Positions 4,970 to 13,521 of a DNA stretch of 64,000 bases are shown one piece after another; the stretch's first letter is position 1; each line of letters begins with the position of its first letter. The DNA is from Nitrospiraceae bacterium (lineage in GTDB: Bacteria; Nitrospirota; Nitrospiria; Nitrospirales; Nitrospiraceae). The notes beneath the pieces are model-generated. The model saw only the letters and a list, made by a program, of their open reading frames with translations, was not told where the DNA came from and searched no databases. The stretch lies in NCBI GenBank assembly GCA_035623075.1, contig DASPUC010000049.1, positions 1 to 64,000 of the forward strand, given 5' to 3'. The position numbers and the translations under genes were made by a program.

Positions 4970-5983
4970 TCACACCGAAGAGTTTCGTGCATGATCAGCC
5001 TGAATGGGTCGAGTTTGTTTTCCGATGAGTAGCAAACACAGAAGACCCACCCCAATCCAGACCAGTTCGCGAAACCGCCGCAGCAGTGCGAAGGTGATGC
5101 CCGTGACGTCTGAATACCCGAAGGCTTTGAGGAGCAGCAGATTGCCGCCGTCTTGTGCGCCGAGGCTGCCAGGGATGAAAAATGTGCCGCCTTTGATGAA
5201 GACCGAGAGTGCACCGATGGACATAGCAGAGAGCACCATCGCGGGCCCGTCGAGATAATAAATCATGACGAACACTTCCAGGGCTTCCGCCAACCAGCCG
5301 AGGAAGAAAAGTCCCGTCGACGTGTAAAACGCTGGCCGGTTATTGGTATAGAAATCCAGAATTGTCCGATCCAGCGAACGCAGTTGTTCCTCGCGTGATT
5401 CTAAGAACCCGATCCTGAGTCCGATTTTCCGCAAGAACTCCAGCATCCAGGTAAAGAGACCCTTCCGCTGGACACACACAAATGCCGCCGTACCAAACAG
5501 CAGAAGCGCGACGCTGAGCAAGGCGGCTGCGACCGTGTGCCCCGACGAGCTATCGACGCCCAGCGTCCAGAACGCCAGCATGATGCCGAGCAGAATGAAC
5601 AGCACTTCAGCAATCGTCATCGTCGTCTTAGCAATGACGACGGATGCCAATCCTTCCACCATCGGCACGTGATGCGTTCTGAGCAAATAAGCCTTAAGTG
5701 GTTCGCCGCCGACGTAGGCAGTCGGCGTCGTCATGTTTACGACTTCGCCGGCGGTTCGGATCGCGAGCAATCGCCAGAACGGCACGTGCTTCGCTGCCGG
5801 GCCGAGCGTGACCTTCCATCCATAGGCTTCGATCACGTACATGATGAGAGAGGGAATGAGGATGGCGAGGAGTGCAACCGGGCCAAGCCTGGCCGCTGCC
5901 TCATAGATGTTGCCGGGGCCGACATGCCAAACGAGGAATCCGAGGGTGAGGAGACCAATGAATAGGAGAAGTAGTCTGAGCAC
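4970..5983 (-). CDS. Flippase-like integral membrane protein (YbhN/AglD/lysylphosphatidylglycerol-synthase TM family)
   Basis: Protein of 337 aa with about eight hydrophobic helices. It carries the family signature near residues 75-100 (RTAGEVVNMTTPTAYVGGEP) and a second motif, GALSVFIKGGTFFIPGSLGAQDGG, typical of the flippase-like domain. Such proteins are thought to move lipid-linked head groups or glycolipids across the inner membrane. It starts with GTG at 5983. It is the last gene of the minus-strand phosphonate run, which suggests that it handles the phosphonate-bearing lipid. That role is inferred from context only. Confidence 0.75.
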   Translation of the reverse strand: MLRLLLLFIGLLTLGFLVWHVGPGNIYEAAARLGPVALLAILIPSLIMYVIEAYGWKVTLGPAAKHVPFWRLLAIRTAGEVVNMTTPTAYVGGEPLKAYLLRTHHVPMVEGLASVVIAKTTMTIAEVLFILLGIMLAFWTLGVDSSSGHTVAAALLSVALLLFGTAAFVCVQRKGLFTWMLEFLRKIGLRIGFLESREEQLRSLDRTILDFYTNNRPAFYTSTGLFFLGWLAEALEVFVMIYYLDGPAMVLSAMSIGALSVFIKGGTFFIPGSLGAQDGGNLLLLKAFGYSDVTGITFALLRRFRELVWIGVGLLCLLLIGKQTRPIQADHARNSSV

Positions 5984-6137: not shown

Positions 6138-7568
6138 CTACGCACGGGTCACGGCGGACGGACGGAGCACCCACAGCATCACAGCGACGAACGTCATCGA
6201 TCCGATAGCGGCCATCCAAAGAAACCACTCCAGTTTGTCAATGCACGCGAAGAGTAACACCATCACCGAGAAATCCCGGCTGGCGACGTTCTTGAGCATG
6301 AAGTCCGACCAGGCGGCATGCACCGGCGTCTTCCATTCACTCGCGGATTTGATCCTCTGCGCTTTGTTCACCAGCGTGAAAGACAGGGCGTTTCCGAGCA
6401 CCGCCGCCGCACCCAAGGCCAGCGGCACCCACGCGCCTTCATGACCCACATCCCGCAAGTACGAGCCGGCGGCGATCCCGACGAAGATGGCCATATGCAC
6501 GACGTTGTCGAGCGCGATATCGAGCCAGGCGCCGAAGGGAGACTCCGTAAACGTGAGGCGCGCGACTTCGCCGTCGCAGCAATCGATGACGGCCGACAAC
6601 TGGAACAGCACTGCCGCGATCACGCCCGCCTGGTAGGAACCGAAGGCGAAGCATGCCGCCGAGATGAGGCCGATCCCCGTGGCCACCAGCGTAACGGCAT
6701 TGGGCGAAAAACCGAAGGCCAGGAACACGCGTGTGAACCAGCGGGAGAGCTTACGATTGAAGAAGCGATCGACAAACCCTTCGTACTCGCCCTTGAGCGA
6801 GGAGAAGAGCTTGCGTTCGGCGAGCTGGACGTCGGCAGGGTCGCGCAGGTCCTGATACCACTGGGTCGGATTCGACTCCGTGCTGAGCACACGCACACAC
6901 CCCACTTCCGCAGCCCGTTCAAGCCACCGGCGAAGCGGCACGGTCCCACTTTCGATTCCGTCCCGACCCGCGGCACTTATGAAGTTGGACGGGAGAACGA
7001 CCACGTCCGTCGCGATCAAGGCGGCATCATCCTGTCTCGACGACCCGAGCGACAGGAGCCGTTCACCTTCCGCTGTGACGCGCAACCCTAAGCGTCGTTC
7101 CTGTTGATCCCATACTGTGGAAGCCCGCGCCACGAGCATCACCTGGCCATCCTGTACTTCCCGACGCAAATGCTCGATCAACTGGCGTGAGAAGACGCCT
7201 CTGACTCCCGAAACCAGACAGAAGCCTCCCGACTCGGCTGCAAGCGATTCCCACGTGCGCGAATCGTCTAGCGGAAACTCTCGAATGGGCATCCAGCGGA
7301 CCGGAATAGTCAGGCGCGGTCCCTTCCCTAATGCGTGTTTTAATTGATCTTCTTCCGCCCCCACCAACACGATCAGCTGACGGATTCCGGCTCGTTGCAG
7401 CGTGAGCACCGTGCGCTGAAAGAGCCCGATGCCGACGACCTGCGTCAGCGGACCGACACGACGAACCGGCAAGCGCCCTGATTCATCGAGAATATCGATC
7501 GAGGGCAATAGGATGGCCGTAGCCAACCCCTGCACCTCCGCCCGTTTCTGGATGAGACTTTCGCTCAT
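6138..7568 (-). CDS. CDP-alcohol phosphotransferase with N-terminal nucleotidyltransferase-like domain
   Basis: Protein of 476 aa in two parts. Residues 1-240 resemble a sugar-nucleotidyltransferase fold, but the P-loop-like GxGxR and the PK motif are lost, so this half is probably inactive. Residues 270-476 are a CDP-alcohol phosphotransferase with the complete catalytic motif DG-x2-AR-x8-G-x3-D-x3-D near residue 330 and about six membrane helices. The order matches the bifunctional inositol-phosphate cytidylyltransferase/DIPP synthase architecture. Here it probably transfers an aminoethylphosphonate head group from its CMP-activated form to a lipid or polyol. Its start lies 9 bp after the upstream nucleotidyltransferase gene. 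Confidence 0.82.
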   Translation of the reverse strand: MSESLIQKRAEVQGLATAILLPSIDILDESGRLPVRRVGPLTQVVGIGLFQRTVLTLQRAGIRQLIVLVGAEEDQLKHALGKGPRLTIPVRWMPIREFPLDDSRTWESLAAESGGFCLVSGVRGVFSRQLIEHLRREVQDGQVMLVARASTVWDQQERRLGLRVTAEGERLLSLGSSRQDDAALIATDVVVLPSNFISAAGRDGIESGTVPLRRWLERAAEVGCVRVLSTESNPTQWYQDLRDPADVQLAERKLFSSLKGEYEGFVDRFFNRKLSRWFTRVFLAFGFSPNAVTLVATGIGLISAACFAFGSYQAGVIAAVLFQLSAVIDCCDGEVARLTFTESPFGAWLDIALDNVVHMAIFVGIAAGSYLRDVGHEGAWVPLALGAAAVLGNALSFTLVNKAQRIKSASEWKTPVHAAWSDFMLKNVASRDFSVMVLLFACIDKLEWFLWMAAIGSMTFVAVMLWVLRPSAVTRA

Positions 7569-7577
7569 ATCGCCACG

Positions 7578-8297
7578 TTAGAGTTTCGGAAGGATCTCTC
7601 GTTCCGCCTTTGCAACGTCTTCTGTAAAATCGATCTCGATCCAGGCCAGCCCGCCGACGGTCTCGTACCCGACCTTCACGTTCTTGAAAAACTCCAGCAG
7701 GGCGTCTTCGTATTCCATGTTCCAGGCTTCACGGTCCACATAGGTTCTCAAGGAAGCGACGACGTGCGGAGTATCAGCGTGGCGGACCTTCAAAAATCCC
7801 ACTCCTTCGCCGGCCACATCATACCGGAGCGGCATCTTCTTTGTCAGCGCGATCACCCGGCCCCCCTCCGCAACAACCATGCATTCTTCACCGGTCTGTT
7901 TCACAGTGTCGTCCATCAAGAGACAATTGGGCCAGGGCGACTGCACCAATCGTCTCAAGACTTCGCGGTGAAAAAGGACATCGGCATCCATAATAATGAC
8001 ATCGTCGTCCAACACGCTCCGCGCAACCCAAAGCGACGAAATGCTCCCGCGATGAAATTGCTCGTTAACCAGAAAGTTCACACGGACGCCCCGGGAATCA
8101 GCTTCCACGGCCGACCGTATCATCTCCTGCTTGTACCCCACCACGATATCGGCGCGCTGGATGCCCAGACTGGCCAACGCCGTCAAATAGCGGTGAAGCA
8201 ACGTCTGCCCGCCGATTTGAATGAGGCACTTGGGACGATGTTGGGTGACCGGCCAAAGGCGCTTCCCGACACCGGCTGCCAGGATGATGGCTTTCAT
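7578..8297 (-). CDS. Nucleotidyltransferase, probable 2-aminoethylphosphonate cytidylyltransferase
   Basis: Protein of 239 aa that opens MKAIILAAGVGKRLWPVTQ then RPKCL. This is the intact nucleotide-binding signature of sugar/choline-phosphate nucleotidyltransferases. It also has IMDADVLF as the metal-binding DAD and a C-terminal WIEIDFTEDVAKAE. The family joins a phosphate or phosphonate to CTP or another NTP. With mutase, decarboxylase and aminotransferase genes around it, the likely product is CMP-aminoethylphosphonate, as in PntC systems, where this domain is fused to the aminotransferase. Its ATG overlaps the aminotransferase stop by 4 bp (ATGA). The substrate is inferred. Confidence 0.8.
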   Translation of the reverse strand: MKAIILAAGVGKRLWPVTQHRPKCLIQIGGQTLLHRYLTALASLGIQRADIVVGYKQEMIRSAVEADSRGVRVNFLVNEQFHRGSISSLWVARSVLDDDVIIMDADVLFHREVLRRLVQSPWPNCLLMDDTVKQTGEECMVVAEGGRVIALTKKMPLRYDVAGEGVGFLKVRHADTPHVVASLRTYVDREAWNMEYEDALLEFFKNVKVGYETVGGLAWIEIDFTEDVAKAEREILPKL

Positions 8298-9376
8298 GCG
8301 GCCGTGCAGATGCGTTCGAAGGCGTCGAGGAATCCCTGGATTTGAGCCTGCGACAGCACCCCCATGTTGGCAATGCGAAAAATCTGCCCTTCGAGTTGTC
8401 CCTGACCGGCATAGATGACGTAGCCCTGCTCCTTCAACTTGTCGTGGAGCTGAGCGTAGGTCAAACCAGCCGGCAGGTGATAGGCCGTGATGGTGTTGGA
8501 CTGGTGTTCCGGTGGCAACAGCGGCTTCACACCGAGCTTCGCCATGCGGTCCCGAATGAAGGTCGAGATGTTCCTGTACCGTTGAATGCGCTTCGCGACT
8601 CCTTCTTCCAGCAATTCGCTGAGCGCCTCGTCGAAAGCATAGTAAAGTTGCACGGCCGGCGTAAACGGCACCGTTCCGCGGCCTTGATCGTCGATATAGT
8701 GCGTGAGATGGAGATACCAGGAGCGCTTGGGGTATTTCCGCATCTGCTCAAGAAACCCCTTCCGCACCAGCACAAACGAGACGCCGGGAAATCCCTGGAT
8801 GCACTTCCCAGCCGTGCCGGCCACCATATAGATGTGCGGCCCGGCGATATCAACAGATTCTCCTGCCAACCCGCTGACCGCGTCCAGGATAAACACTCGA
8901 TTCTGGCTATCAACAACTTCGGCGATCTCCTTCACGGGATTGATGAGGCCAGTCGTGGTTTCGTGGTGGACCATCGCTACCCCGTGGACTTCCGGATGTT
9001 GTCGCAGCGCAAGGCGCAATCGCTCCGGGTCGGGGCAGACCGTCCACTCGTATTTGAGTTCGGAGACGCCTAACCGATTCAATCCAACGATTTGCGAGAT
9101 CCGTTCGCCATACACACCATTGTTTAACACGAGCATGCGCTTGCCGTGAGGGATCGACGACATCAAGGCTGCTTCTACTGCCGAGGTCCCGGACCCGGTG
9201 ATGAGCGCTGCCGCGTAGTCGGATTCCGCACCGGGCACGAAGGCTTGCAAGAGTTTACTTTGAATTCTGTAGAGCAGCTCGGTGAATTCGGTCTCTCGAT
9301 GGCAGATGTCCGGACGCAGCAATGCCTGACGAACGCGCTCGCTTACGTTGACTGGACCAGGATTGAGAAGAATCAT
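8294..9376 (-). CDS. Class V aminotransferase, 2-aminoethylphosphonate transaminase-like (PhnW family)
   Basis: Protein of 360 aa and full length for the family. It begins MILLNPGPVNVSERVRQAL, with GSGTSAVEAAL near residue 62 for cofactor phosphate binding. VHHETTTGLINP and FILDAVSGLAG follow. The PLP-binding Lys is at about residue 191 in GTAGKCIQGFPG, closely matching PhnW-type enzymes. In a biosynthetic cluster it would convert phosphonoacetaldehyde to 2-aminoethylphosphonate. It is coupled to the downstream nucleotidyltransferase by ATGA. A role with another phosphonate aldehyde cannot be excluded. Confidence 0.82.
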   Translation of the reverse strand: MILLNPGPVNVSERVRQALLRPDICHRETEFTELLYRIQSKLLQAFVPGAESDYAAALITGSGTSAVEAALMSSIPHGKRMLVLNNGVYGERISQIVGLNRLGVSELKYEWTVCPDPERLRLALRQHPEVHGVAMVHHETTTGLINPVKEIAEVVDSQNRVFILDAVSGLAGESVDIAGPHIYMVAGTAGKCIQGFPGVSFVLVRKGFLEQMRKYPKRSWYLHLTHYIDDQGRGTVPFTPAVQLYYAFDEALSELLEEGVAKRIQRYRNISTFIRDRMAKLGVKPLLPPEHQSNTITAYHLPAGLTYAQLHDKLKEQGYVIYAGQGQLEGQIFRIANMGVLSQAQIQGFLDAFERICTAA

Positions 9377-9456: not shown

Positions 9457-10035
9457 CTATTCTATCGCTTTCATAAACCGCTTCGTAATATCCGGCGGAT
9501 TAAGGACGACCCGGCCCACATCTTCAGCCAATTCGTTGACCTTGATCAGCAACATGCTCGGGCCGTCCTTCTTGAGCATGTCTTTGAACTCGTAGGTGAG
9601 ATCTTCTCGCTCGCGCACGCGCTCCACGTTGACGTACCCGGCGGCTTTCGCCACCTTTTCGAGAGGCACGACGTTGGAGATCGTGGGCTGATTGCCGGTC
9701 GTGCCGTACACTTCGTTATCGAACACGACGTGGATGAAATTCTTCGGCTTCAATGCTCCGACGGTGGCGAGGGTACCCATCCCCATCAGTACATTCCCAT
9801 CGCCGTCGAATATGACGACCTGTTTGTTCGGCTTTGCCAGAGCCACCCCGAGCCCGATCGCCGCTGCTGAGCCCATCGAGCCGATCATGTAGAAATGGGT
9901 GGAACGGTCGGCGATCTTTTGCGCCTCGCGCGAGGGGAACCCGTTACATATGATGACCGGTTGATCGGTCAAGAGTTCTAACAGCGCCGTCATCGCCATG
10001 GCCCGGCTTTGCATCGCGCCTTCTTCTGGTCTCAT
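9457..10035 (-). CDS. Phosphonopyruvate decarboxylase, C-terminal (TPP-pyrophosphate-binding) subunit
   Basis: Protein of 192 aa. It carries the thiamine pyrophosphate motif GDGNVLMGMGTLATVGA followed by FDNEVYGTTGNQPT, as in the C-terminal half of phosphonopyruvate and sulfopyruvate decarboxylases. With its partner it decarboxylates phosphonopyruvate to phosphonoacetaldehyde, the irreversible step that drives the pathway. The start at 10035 overlaps the stop of the alpha gene (ATGA). Longer frames into the alpha gene are spurious. Confidence 0.85.
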   Translation of the reverse strand: MRPEEGAMQSRAMAMTALLELLTDQPVIICNGFPSREAQKIADRSTHFYMIGSMGSAAAIGLGVALAKPNKQVVIFDGDGNVLMGMGTLATVGALKPKNFIHVVFDNEVYGTTGNQPTISNVVPLEKVAKAAGYVNVERVREREDLTYEFKDMLKKDGPSMLLIKVNELAEDVGRVVLNPPDITKRFMKAIE

Positions 10036-10529
10036 GGATGCAGCCCCTTCACGACCCCTTTGGTAATGATCAGCGCCAGGGGGATGCGCTTCTTCATGAA
10101 CGTCTCCGCCACCCACTTGCAATCCTCAATGGCGGTCTTTTCGGTGAGCGTCCGGTGCGGGATCTTCATGGTGTCGAGAAACTGGGGCATGACCTCACCC
10201 ATCACGAGATGTTCCGGCGCATCCTTCCCGAGATGCCCCCGCCACGACACGATGAGGATGCAGGGCTGCTGGTAGATGTAATTCAGTGAGATGAGGGTGT
10301 TGAGCGACGTGCCCAACCCCGAGTTTTGCATCAAGACAGCCGGGATTTTTCCTGCCATGTAGGCCCCCGCTGCCATGGCCACGGCTTCATCTTCCCGCAC
10401 CGCCGGTGTGTAGAGGCGGCGCTCCATCAATTCGGCGATGATACCGCCCAGGATCGAATCAGGAACTCCCGTAAAGAAGTTCACTCCCATATCCTGAAGG
10501 GCTTGCACAAAGGCGTCGCTCTCGATCAT
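10032..10529 (-). CDS. Phosphonopyruvate decarboxylase, N-terminal (TPP-pyrimidine-binding) subunit
   Basis: Protein of 165 aa with FFTGVPDSIL near residue 20, a motif of phosphonopyruvate decarboxylases. The catalytic glutamate lies in REDEAVAMAAGAYMAGK, and NSGLGTSLNTL follows. It forms the other half of the TPP enzyme. Most phosphonopyruvate decarboxylases are one chain of about 380 aa; here the enzyme is split as in ComD/ComE sulfopyruvate decarboxylase. The neighbouring PEP mutase points to phosphonopyruvate rather than sulfopyruvate. Confidence 0.83.
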   Translation of the reverse strand: MIESDAFVQALQDMGVNFFTGVPDSILGGIIAELMERRLYTPAVREDEAVAMAAGAYMAGKIPAVLMQNSGLGTSLNTLISLNYIYQQPCILIVSWRGHLGKDAPEHLVMGEVMPQFLDTMKIPHRTLTEKTAIEDCKWVAETFMKKRIPLALIITKGVVKGLHP

Positions 10530-10666: not shown

Positions 10667-11200
10667 ATGAAGAGCCCGCCCGGAACACGAACGATCCGCG
10701 TCCTCGTATCGCTTGGCCTCGCACTTTTCGCCGATCAGGCGTTGACGGTTCACGCTGTGCCGCTGCTCAACGATCCGAAGGGGTTTCACGATATTGGGTG
10801 GGGCGTGGCGTTGACCGCGAGACCAGAGCTAGAAGTCACGCGGACCGACCAACACGTGAACGAATACCGACTGAAAAACGAGGCAGCTGCATTCGCGGGC
10901 GTTCCCGTCGACAGCATTCGCCTCATCACGGTAGATGAGCGGTTCGCCCGCGTGACAATCCGCTATCACGGCGAGTCCTCACATAAAGAGATTCTGACCT
11001 ATCTCCAACGGCAATTCGGCCCCCTTGAGCATCTTCCCGGGCAGATGATGCGGGGACTTAATCAGCAGTATAATTGGCGAGGGACCGACACGGAGATTAA
11101 TTTGACCTATACTGGAACTTCGGAACGGGGGTTCATTTTCATCGACAGCCGAAGCTTAGCCCCTCGCTTTAACGATCTAATCGGCGATACGGTGGATTAA
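10667..11200 (+). CDS. Secreted protein of unknown function, paralogue of the next gene
   Basis: Protein of 177 aa with an N-terminal signal-like helix ending near LTVHAVP. The mature part starts LLNDPKGFHDIGWG. It shares VTIRYH, SHK-I, GPL-x5-G-x2 and QQYNWRGTDTEINLTY with its neighbour, so the pair arose by tandem duplication. No domain recognised. Its TAA overlaps the next ATG by 1 bp. It sits between the two divergent halves of the phosphonate cluster, with no evidence for a role in it. Confidence 0.7.
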   Translation: MKSPPGTRTIRVLVSLGLALFADQALTVHAVPLLNDPKGFHDIGWGVALTARPELEVTRTDQHVNEYRLKNEAAAFAGVPVDSIRLITVDERFARVTIRYHGESSHKEILTYLQRQFGPLEHLPGQMMRGLNQQYNWRGTDTEINLTYTGTSERGFIFIDSRSLAPRFNDLIGDTVD

Positions 11201-11763
11201 TGACGATGCGACCACATCAGCATCAGCGATCAACTCTGCGGAAGCTCCTCTTCGTGTGTGCCGGTCTGACCCTGCTACCCGGCGGCTTGACCTTCGCCGT
11301 CCCGATGCAGAACGATCCCAACGGTTTCGAGGGCATCCCGTGGGGCGCAGGCTTTACCGAAACGGCCGATTTCAAGCTGGTGGATGACGGACCGCGCGTG
11401 AAGGGCTATGAGTTGGTAAAAGGTCCTCCTGCACTGGGCGGTGCGAAAGTGGACGCCATGCGATTCGTCACGCTGAATGGAAAATTCGTGCGCGTGACGA
11501 TCCGCTATCATAGCCCCGAGTCACACAAACAGATCGTCGACTATTTTCAAGCGAAATATGGACCGCTCGACCGCACGCCGGGACAAATTTCAAAAGGTGG
11601 CGTACAGCAGTTCAACTGGCGCGGCGACGATACCTTGATTACCTTGACCTACGAGACCGCCATGGACCGCGGTATCATCTTCTTCGAAAGCCGTGCGCTA
11701 GCCCTGAAACTCTCCGAGGAAATGATGGCACCCGAACCGGATCTTGGCGGAGCCACTTACTAG
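11200..11763 (+). CDS. Secreted protein of unknown function, tandem paralogue
   Basis: Protein of 187 aa with a signal peptide (LLFVCAGLTLLPGGLTFA) then VPMQNDPNGFEGIPWG. The fold-defining segments FVRVTIRYHSPESHKQIVDYF and QQFNWRGDDTLITLTYE align with the upstream gene over almost the whole length. Start by TAATG overlap; ATG at 11206 is an alternative. Probably periplasmic. The single-domain pattern NDPxGF...W recalls small secreted proteins common in this lineage, but no function is known to me. Confidence 0.7.
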   Translation: MTMRPHQHQRSTLRKLLFVCAGLTLLPGGLTFAVPMQNDPNGFEGIPWGAGFTETADFKLVDDGPRVKGYELVKGPPALGGAKVDAMRFVTLNGKFVRVTIRYHSPESHKQIVDYFQAKYGPLDRTPGQISKGGVQQFNWRGDDTLITLTYETAMDRGIIFFESRALALKLSEEMMAPEPDLGGATY

Positions 11764-11841: not shown

Positions 11842-13521
11842 ATGACGAACGCCGCTAAACTTCGTGCTCTGCTCAAACGCCCCGGTGTAATCAGAGCCGT
11901 TGGAGCCCATGACGCCCTGAGTGCGCGCCTGATTGAGCAAGCCGGATTCGATGCGATTTGGGCGAGTGGGTTTGCTATTTCGGCCTCGCTCAAATGCATC
12001 CCGGATGCGAGCTTTATCACCTCCAGTGAACAACTCGACGTCGAACGCCGCATTGCAGAAGCCGTCTCGATTCCGATTATCGCCGACTGTGACACCGGTT
12101 ACGGCAATGCGCTGAACGTCATGCGCACGGTCAACGATCGTGAACGGGCGGGTGTCGCCGCCATCTGCATTGAAGATAATGTGTACCCGAAACGCTGCAG
12201 CTTCTACGCCGGCGTCCGCCGCGAACTCATCCCCATCGAAGAACATTGCGGCAAGATCAAGGCGGCCAAAGCCGCACAGATATATCCGGACTTCGTCATC
12301 ATCGCGAGGACCGAAGCGTTGATCGCCGGGTGGGGGCAGGACGAAGCGTTGAAGCGGGCGGAGGCCTATGCCGAAGCCGGCGCCGATGCGGTCCTGATTC
12401 ACTCAAAGTCCAAAACATTCGATGAACTCAAGAAGGTGTACAAAGCCTGGTCCGGCCGCGTGCCGCTTGTCGTAGTGCCGACGATTTTCGACCAGACCAC
12501 GGCCGCGGAAATGGAAGCGGCCGGTGCGAAAATCATCATCTATGCAAACCAACCGGTTCGGGCAGCCATCCGTGCCATGAAAGAGACGTTGGATCTCATC
12601 AACAAAGATACGCGCCCCGGCGCCGCGAACGATCGTATCGTCACACTGCCCGAAGTCTATGAGATCGTCGGCGTGCCGCAGATGGAGGAAGACGAAAAGC
12701 AGTTTCTCCCCGTTGGCGGAGAGAAAATCACCGCCATTATTCCAGCGGCTGGGTTCGAAAAGCAGTTGCTTCCCTTGATTGAAGACAAGCCGAAGTGTTT
12801 GCTCGACATTAAAGGGAAAACGATTCTGGAACGAGCGGTGGCCGCACTCAATGAATGCAACATCAAGGATATCGCCTTGATCCGCGGCTATAAGAAGGAA
12901 GCGATCACGCTCCCCAATATCCGTTACTACGACAACGATCGCTACGAAGACACGGGTGAACTGTTTTCGGTCTTTTGCGCCGAGAACGAAATGAAGGGGC
13001 GGACGATCATCCTCTATGGCGACATCATTTTCGACACTGCGATTTTGGAAAAGCTGCTCAAGAGTCCGGCGGACATCGCTGTGGTCGTCGATCTCGCCTG
13101 GCACGACCAGCAGCAGCGCCATGCCCACACGTTGCATTTGAACCCCGATCTCGTGACCCTTGACGATCCCCCCGGCAAGAGTTACTTGTCCCGATTCGTG
13201 ATGCCCGAGGGGGAACACCGGGTGACAAAAATCGGCCAGCAGCTCCCCCATGACCAGGCGCACGGGGAGTTCATTGGCATGGCAATGTTCTCAGAAAAGG
13301 GGATCGCGGCGTTCCGCGCCTCTTATCGCACGGCGCTCGACAAGCATAAGGCAGCCGGGTTCCATGAGGCAGGCACCCTCACAAAAGCCTCTCTGACAGA
13401 CCTTCTCCAAGAACTGATCGATCAGGGTCACCGGATTGATGCAGTTCCGATTTTCAAAGGCTGGATGGAAGTGGACTCCTTCGAGGAATACCAAAAAGCC
13501 TGGGCCAAGCTGCGGCAATAA
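11842..13521 (+). CDS. PEP mutase-like enzyme fused to a nucleotidyltransferase-like domain
   Basis: Protein of 559 aa. Residues 1-285 are a PEP mutase/isocitrate lyase barrel. DCDTGYGN carries the metal aspartates, and ARTEALIAGWGQDEALKRAE and GADAVLIHSK match PEP mutases closely. The catalytic loop (residues 111-120) reads EDNVYPKRCS instead of EDK-x5-NS: the loop Lys117 is kept, but Asn is Cys119. Residues 300-559 resemble a nucleotidyltransferase (IIPAAGFEKQLLPLIEDKPKCLLDIKGK split by a degenerate GxGxR; LYGDIIFD; GWMEVDSFEEYQKA). It should convert PEP to phosphonopyruvate, the entry to all common phosphonates. A phosphonopyruvate hydrolase is the main alternative. Confidence 0.8.
   Translation: MTNAAKLRALLKRPGVIRAVGAHDALSARLIEQAGFDAIWASGFAISASLKCIPDASFITSSEQLDVERRIAEAVSIPIIADCDTGYGNALNVMRTVNDRERAGVAAICIEDNVYPKRCSFYAGVRRELIPIEEHCGKIKAAKAAQIYPDFVIIARTEALIAGWGQDEALKRAEAYAEAGADAVLIHSKSKTFDELKKVYKAWSGRVPLVVVPTIFDQTTAAEMEAAGAKIIIYANQPVRAAIRAMKETLDLINKDTRPGAANDRIVTLPEVYEIVGVPQMEEDEKQFLPVGGEKITAIIPAAGFEKQLLPLIEDKPKCLLDIKGKTILERAVAALNECNIKDIALIRGYKKEAITLPNIRYYDNDRYEDTGELFSVFCAENEMKGRTIILYGDIIFDTAILEKLLKSPADIAVVVDLAWHDQQQRHAHTLHLNPDLVTLDDPPGKSYLSRFVMPEGEHRVTKIGQQLPHDQAHGEFIGMAMFSEKGIAAFRASYRTALDKHKAAGFHEAGTLTKASLTDLLQELIDQGHRIDAVPIFKGWMEVDSFEEYQKAWAKLRQ

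Follow-up and report, generated by a model that had tools for sequence, protein, structure and literature searches.

The window, a 64,000-nucleotide stretch (positions 1 to 64,000 of contig DASPUC010000049.1, Nitrospiraceae bacterium assembly GCA_035623075.1), encodes a PEP-mutase-like barrel fused to a nucleotidyltransferase domain, with genes of a phosphonate operon beside it (Table 1). The Pfam PF13714 match covers residues 7 to 251 of the fusion, ahead of the nucleotidyltransferase domain. The gating loop reads EDNVYPKRCS rather than EDK-x5-NS, the motif that defines PEP mutases; this departure, noticed in an earlier note on the sequence, was confirmed, although the start given there (12169) takes in Ile110. 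In an alignment with Mytilus PEP mutase, K116, K120, T121, N122, and S123 correspond to N113, K117, R118, C119, and S120 of the window protein, and the loop lysine (Lys117) is retained, as the note had also proposed. The protein scored 276.3 bits against the NCBI equivalog model for PEP mutase (TIGR02320), below the cut-off of 319.55. Because both the diagnostic motif and the curated cut-off fail here, we call the protein an early-branching enzyme of PEP-mutase type rather than a motif-defined family member.

Table 1. Coordinates of the fusion gene, its loop residues, and neighboring genes in the window
Feature	Position	Strand	Basis
HpnL / LPG_synthase_TM family membrane protein	4970..5983	-	PF03706, TIGR03476
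Nucleotidyltransferase-like / CDP-alcohol phosphatidyltransferase	6138..7568	-	PF01066 residues 289-445; DIPP-synthase-like over 38-468
Second nucleotidyltransferase	7578..8297	-	PF00483
2-Aminoethylphosphonate aminotransferase-like	8294..9376	-	TIGR03301 348.5 bits, cut-off 360.8
Phosphonopyruvate decarboxylase C-terminal (beta) subunit	9457..10035	-	TIGR03846 E 6e-55, TIGR03297 E 3e-52, both below cut-off
Phosphonopyruvate decarboxylase N-terminal (alpha) subunit	10032..10529	-	TIGR03297 E 1.3e-37 (below cut-off), sulfopyru_alph E 1e-31
Two small conserved ORFs (177 and 187 aa), upstream of mutase	10667..11763	+	No Pfam match; locus synteny marker
PEP-mutase-like / nucleotidyltransferase fusion gene, 559 aa, ATG start	11842..13521	+	ORF and profile matches
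PEP-mutase-like barrel, residues 1-286	11842..12699	+	PF13714 202.6 bits; AlphaFold2 model; best PDB match 5unc
Gating-loop motif E111-D112-N113-V114-Y115-P116-K117-R118-C119-S120	12172..12201	+	Translation and alignment
Asn113 codon	12178..12180	+	Lys in 56/56 canonical rows, Gln in 11/11 lyases
Arg118 codon	12193..12195	+	Arg/Lys in 23/23 Cys-type rows and 11/11 lyases
Cys119 codon	12196..12198	+	Position of Mytilus PEP mutase loop Asn122 and of lyase Cys
Arg127 codon	12220..12222	+	Arg in 23/23 Cys-type rows; Gln 0.98 in canonical; Lys in all lyases
Fused nucleotidyltransferase domain, about residues 296-559	12727..13518	+	PF12804 E 3.6e-9, residues 316-417; Arch_glmU-like from residue 297

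The presence of pathway genes next to the mutase gene was borne out: the decarboxylase, AEP aminotransferase, nucleotidyltransferase, and CDP-alcohol transferase adjoin it in the window, and in all 15 neighborhoods counted (L033 to L047) from the window's family (f1). In other families of the order, operon genes were adjacent in 0 of 9 loci (L048 to L056), none of which showed a decarboxylase in the flanking DNA retrieved, and most such genomes carry the decarboxylase elsewhere. The decarboxylase at 9457 to 10529 consists of two overlapping genes resembling sulfopyruvate decarboxylase alpha and beta, and the split form is conserved across the order; the likely ATG start of the beta subunit, picked by eye, overlaps the alpha stop. 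A two-gene phosphonopyruvate decarboxylase is reported from actinomycetes in PMC12723261, and the split decarboxylase is therefore not new. The N-terminal half of the 6138 to 7568 product is nucleotidyltransferase-like by NCBIfam with no Pfam nucleotidyltransferase match, and is perhaps a decayed or diverged domain. The two small ORFs upstream of the mutase are related to each other and accompany the phosphonate operon even where the mutase has been lost.

Conservation and distribution of the Cys loop

Of 147 genomes in the order Nitrospirales, 36 matched a DNA pattern for the Cys loop and 0 matched the reversed control pattern; in a phylum draw of 395 genomes, 41 matched, all in the window's class (control, 0). 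Among the 36 matches in the order, 31 use TGC for the Cys and 5 use TGT. Comparison of the window gene with eight orthologues gave dN values of 0.06 to 0.10 and dS values of >1.4 (dS saturated in two pairs), and loop positions 111 to 114 and 116 to 120 showed no variation in any of 13 diverse rows from the order. Recurrence across genomes, synonymous codon variation, and low dN relative to dS indicate that the Cys119 residue is kept by selection. Chance or sequencing error as the source of the Cys loop is excluded by this conservation and selection and by the zero reversed-pattern matches.

Contigs of named genomes were also scanned, and the best 80 of at least 579 encoded relatives were taken as loci. 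Among these best 80, 22 carried a Cys loop, 55 carried EDK..NS, two carried EDN..RNS (L111, KSB1; L123, a DPANN archaeon), and one carried EEK..NS (L107). The Cys-loop consensus in the same 80 was EDN[x]FPK or YPK followed by [RK]CS, and the nucleotidyltransferase fusion was present in all Cys types except a Phycisphaerales copy of 282 aa (L105). Record labels of the Cys types among the 80 included Nitrospirota, Nitrospinota, Binatota, Myxococcota/Deltaproteobacteria, Pseudomonadota, Rokubacteria, Planctomycetota, and Acidobacteriota; these records are mostly metagenome assembled, with phylum labels as deposited, and L084, labelled Nitrospinota, clusters with Nitrospirota sequences in the tree. 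Outside Nitrospirota, the decarboxylase lies directly after the Cys-type gene in 6 of 11 loci among the best 80 (L089, L090, L091, L093, L094, and L095; L084 uncounted), while none was found within the DNA fetched around the other five (L086, L087, L088, L092, and L105). The decarboxylase follows in most of the canonical loci of the 80 too. The earlier description of the loop as a variant active site holds in that the deviation is real, but it is not an isolated departure from the canonical enzyme; it is invariant in a group, either a clade or a grade, whose members come from several phyla.

Several irregular sequences were encountered. An apparent third loop, EDTLQPARFG, in G039:C9 (L058) reads as the product of chimeric assembly; the Cys loop in this genome lies on G039:C115. 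At 7800 to 9371 of L058, a Nitrospira mutase N terminus switches at the loop to another ICL-superfamily protein, after which come a run of N and foreign-looking sequence, and the locus was excluded from counts. A 109-aa fragment with 69% identity to the window mutase and an in-frame TGA (G125:C168:34941-35267) occurs alongside an intact copy and is probably a pseudogene or duplicate.

Active-site residues and predicted fold

Alignment columns were compared among 56 canonical mutase, 11 lyase, and 23 Cys-type rows, and 16 columns separated canonical from lyase. At these, the Cys-type rows were mutase-like in 11 (including S120, F121, H187, V212, and P213), lyase-like in 2 (columns 38 and 119), and neither in 3 (N113, R127, and column 263). 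A one-residue longer loop before D55 in Nitrospirota was considered as a further lyase trait and rejected, as it is missing in most Cys types outside Nitrospirota. W40, D55, D82, D84, E111, K117, S120, R156, and H187 are present in 23/23 Cys-type rows, and Mytilus W44, D58, D85, D87, E114, K120, S123, R159, and H190, which we take to be the PEP mutase active-site residues, are all identical in the window protein and in those 23 rows.

Positions 113, 118, 119, and 127 exchange jointly. Canonical rows have Lys, a mostly uncharged residue, Asn, and Gln; Cys-type rows have Asn, Arg or Lys, Cys, and Arg; and lyases have Gln, Arg or Lys, Cys, and Lys. All 23 Cys-type rows have the Cys with a preceding Arg or Lys and with Asn113. 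The Cys-type loop is thereby similar to EDQ..K[RK]C, the loop of the superfamily's C-C lyases, in which the Cys is catalytic; titles of C123S mutants among the PDB fold matches fit that role. In the two EDN..RNS sequences (L111 and L123), Asn113 and Arg118 accompany the canonical Asn119; these are intermediate combinations.

The AlphaFold2 model of the barrel (pLDDT 94.4) was searched against the PDB with Foldseek. The best match was 5unc, a Streptomyces PEP mutase (TM 0.97; rmsd 0.8), which was also the top solved relative in a PDB sequence search; TM values against lyases were mostly 0.87 to 0.91 (3eoo, 0.89 to 0.90; 1mum, 0.89). The expectation that the rest of the barrel would be mutase-like is consistent with this predicted fold and with the active-site residues. 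In comparison with canonical PEP mutases (Ppm/PepM; Mytilus 1pym/1m1b, Streptomyces 5unc), the window protein has in common the fold, the metal and phosphoryl residues, Ser120, His187, and a Ppd neighborhood, but it has N113 for Lys, R118, C119 for Asn, and R127 for Gln, in addition to its sub-threshold TIGR02320 score.

Exchange with canonical mutases among related genomes

By DNA patterns, 36 of the 147 genomes of the order carry the Cys type, 92 carry EDK..NS, 0 carry both, and 19 carry neither. All five EDK genomes of family f1 that were examined (G009, G063, G072, G076, and G032) have the operon and its two upstream ORFs intact with a mutase-free slot, and their EDK mutase fusion lies elsewhere, unlinked to the operon. 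The slot is closed in G072, where PilZ-like and TetR-like genes (named by eye) come next, of the kinds that also follow in the window. The exchange between Cys and EDK types was seen within genera g2 and g6. Since the genomes of the order are related, swap and co-occurrence counts are not independent events; with that caution, among high-quality genomes (≥90% complete, ≤5% contaminated) the CDP-alcohol transferase was present in 22 of 23 with the Cys type, 77 of 78 with EDK, and 3 of 11 with neither. Matched species pairs are available in which one mutase type substitutes for the other beside the same pathway.

The decarboxylase beta subunit (PpdB) was present in 10 of the 11 high-quality genomes with neither mutase type. 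Given that the split decarboxylase also occurs in genomes without either mutase, the operon alone is no proof of phosphonopyruvate production. In the six no-mutase neighborhoods that were read (L167 to L172, from G018, G019, G030, G038, G011, and G025), the decarboxylase and aminotransferase remain, and the nucleotidyl- and CDP-alcohol transferases are gone; these are complete or near-complete genomes in which neither mutase type and no CDP-alcohol transferase was found. Some EDK genomes also carry a full-length decarboxylase (377- to 393-aa frame) beside the EDK mutase.

A genome-wide search found no other ICL-superfamily gene in the window's genome. A canonical second mutase elsewhere in that genome, which would free the fusion for another task, was considered and rejected, the second PF13714 match (L166) being of PanB type by eye. 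Across 37 genomes (the 36 Cys-type genomes and G106), second superfamily matches all scored ≤114 bits, the level of lyase-type relatives.

Phylogeny, alternative readings, and proposed function

Trees were built with the loop (motif) columns removed and were rooted on lyases. Ten near-copies (L080, L087, L132, L140, L141, L145 to L148, and L153) were dropped before the first tree; for the second, the long rows L105, L111, and L123 and the hydrolase 2dua were dropped as well, and four lyase rows were added. The 56 EDK..NS rows formed one clade, together with 2dua in the first tree (100/99) and alone in the second (100/99), and the lyase rows formed a separate clade (100/100). Cys types were not nested within the canonical clade of either free tree. 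In the second tree the Cys rows lay outside it as a basal grade toward the C-C lyases, with a weak backbone (bootstrap 60 to 94), and constraining them to one clade fit equally well (AU P = 0.523).

Because the Cys types lie outside the canonical clade in the free trees, Cys is favored, though not proven, as the older state at the loop position. The opposite polarity would have Asn revert to Cys in one canonical lineage and then spread by gene transfer, the product still being a mutase, so that this reading overlaps with our main one on function. A root on the long Mytilus-type branch, with which polarity would be undecided, was not rejected (log-likelihood lower by 11.8; AU P = 0.304). Set against such a reversal are the position of all Cys types in the free trees, the presence in the lyase outgroup of the same Cys with the same flanking Arg or Lys, and the EDN..RNS sequences L111 and L123, which join the canonical Asn to a Cys-type background and branch beside the Cys rows, on long branches. 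We consider a derived Cys somewhat unlikely.

Other readings concern the activity itself. The loop Cys could serve as the catalytic thiol of a C-C lyase similar to 2-methylisocitrate or isocitrate lyase, and Cys119, Arg/Lys118, and Thr157 are indeed common to all 11 lyase rows and are seen in 2-methylisocitrate lyase (PrpB, 1mum) and the petal death protein (1zlp); the prpB model (TIGR02317, methylisocitrate lyase) also gave 204.4 bits. That score misses the cut-off of 354.4, however, and the lyase-specific G120, H121 (the Gly-His after the Cys), E187, N212, and M213 are S, F, H, V, and P in the window protein. Combined with the separate lyase clade and with the alternation between this gene and canonical mutases for the same operon among sister genomes, these differences make lyase activity highly improbable. 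A phosphonopyruvate hydrolase, degrading the compound instead of making it, was raised by the earlier note on the grounds that known hydrolases also replace the loop Asn. This is so for the Variovorax enzyme 2dua, of the same superfamily, which has Thr at the site, and the hydrolase model TIGR02321 scored 275.4 bits, equal to the mutase model, though short of its own cut-off of 374.4. Since the 2dua row sits within the canonical EDK clade, it is not the useful comparison: it retains EDK and is apart from the Cys types, whereas the window protein has EDN and Cys. A hydrolase would moreover drain the pathway. The nucleotidyltransferase fusion and the canonical mutase that takes this gene's place in sister genomes also speak against hydrolysis, which is very unlikely. 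It might also be supposed, from the alteration of a motif regarded as diagnostic, that the barrel is decayed or noncatalytic and merely carries the nucleotidyltransferase domain; in view of the low dN relative to dS, the invariant loop positions in the order, and the invariance of all other metal and substrate residues, this is extremely improbable.

The variant is real and conserved, and on the sequence and model evidence it is most likely a functional PEP mutase working like the canonical enzyme. It is highly probable that the gene product is an early-diverging, working PEP mutase, with the gating-loop Asn replaced by Cys as in C-C lyases; a working mutase with a Cys, already the likely reading in the earlier note, is still the best one, with catalytic activity inferred. 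In the mechanism that we propose, in which residue roles draw partly on work on PEP mutase, PEP would bind Mg2+ held by D82, D84, and E111, and the loop with K117, R118, C119, and S120 would shut over it. During transfer of the phosphoryl group from O to C, which would give phosphonopyruvate, that group would be stabilized by R156, H187, and K117, together with the loop. The adjacent two-subunit decarboxylase would pull phosphonopyruvate on to phosphonoacetaldehyde, from which the aminotransferase would make AEP, and the nucleotidyltransferases and CDP-alcohol transferase may then attach AEP to a lipid or to some other alcohol at the surface. C119 most likely replaces Asn122 in contacting the migrating phosphoryl group, and the loop charge would be shifted from Lys113 to Arg118/Arg127.

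A further, speculative proposal is that Cys types are survivors of the step from a Cys-dependent C-C lyase to a C-P mutase. The lyase thiol and loop charge would have been kept, Asn would have come later (with EDN..RNS as intermediates), and the thiol might take part directly in the chemistry, either covalently or as an acid-base group; some lyase activity and a sensitivity to redox state might also remain. We regard this proposal as unlikely. The natural series of lyase Cys, mutase Cys, EDN..RNS, and canonical EDK..NS nevertheless offers a route to test the origin of C-P bond formation in the superfamily.

In PMC6697681, PMC8931226, and PMC12723261, EDKX5NS is required for a true PEP mutase and hence for phosphonate producers, and PMC9381506 describes verification of genes by essential residues listed in its supplement. 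In PMC6697681, 22 of 905 PF13714 fusions without EDKXXXXXNS were removed as presumed non-Ppm; the Ppm-NTP-transferase fusions there have the same Pfam pair, PF13714 and PF12804, in one protein as the window, but those kept by the survey carry EDKXXXXXNS and the window fusion does not. Censuses that use the motif as a hard filter, as the three sources that require EDKX5NS do, would therefore discard the Cys-type clade. As the clade fails EDKX5NS and the window protein also fails TIGR02320, phosphonate capacity in these groups would be undercounted. A literature search, with most subscription papers outside its reach, yielded no description of a Cys-type mutase or of Nitrospira phosphonates, and neither it nor the PDB sequence search returned a characterized Cys-type homologue. 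In Nitrospira-family bacteria the conserved Cys-type clade is associated with complete phosphonate operons, and in several other phyla it is associated with decarboxylases. The order also has a third mutase type, with the loop EDKLFPKVNS and ~50% identity to the window protein, which was seen in G106 (L057, 5868 to 6716) and falls in the same part of the tree as Streptomyces 5unc.
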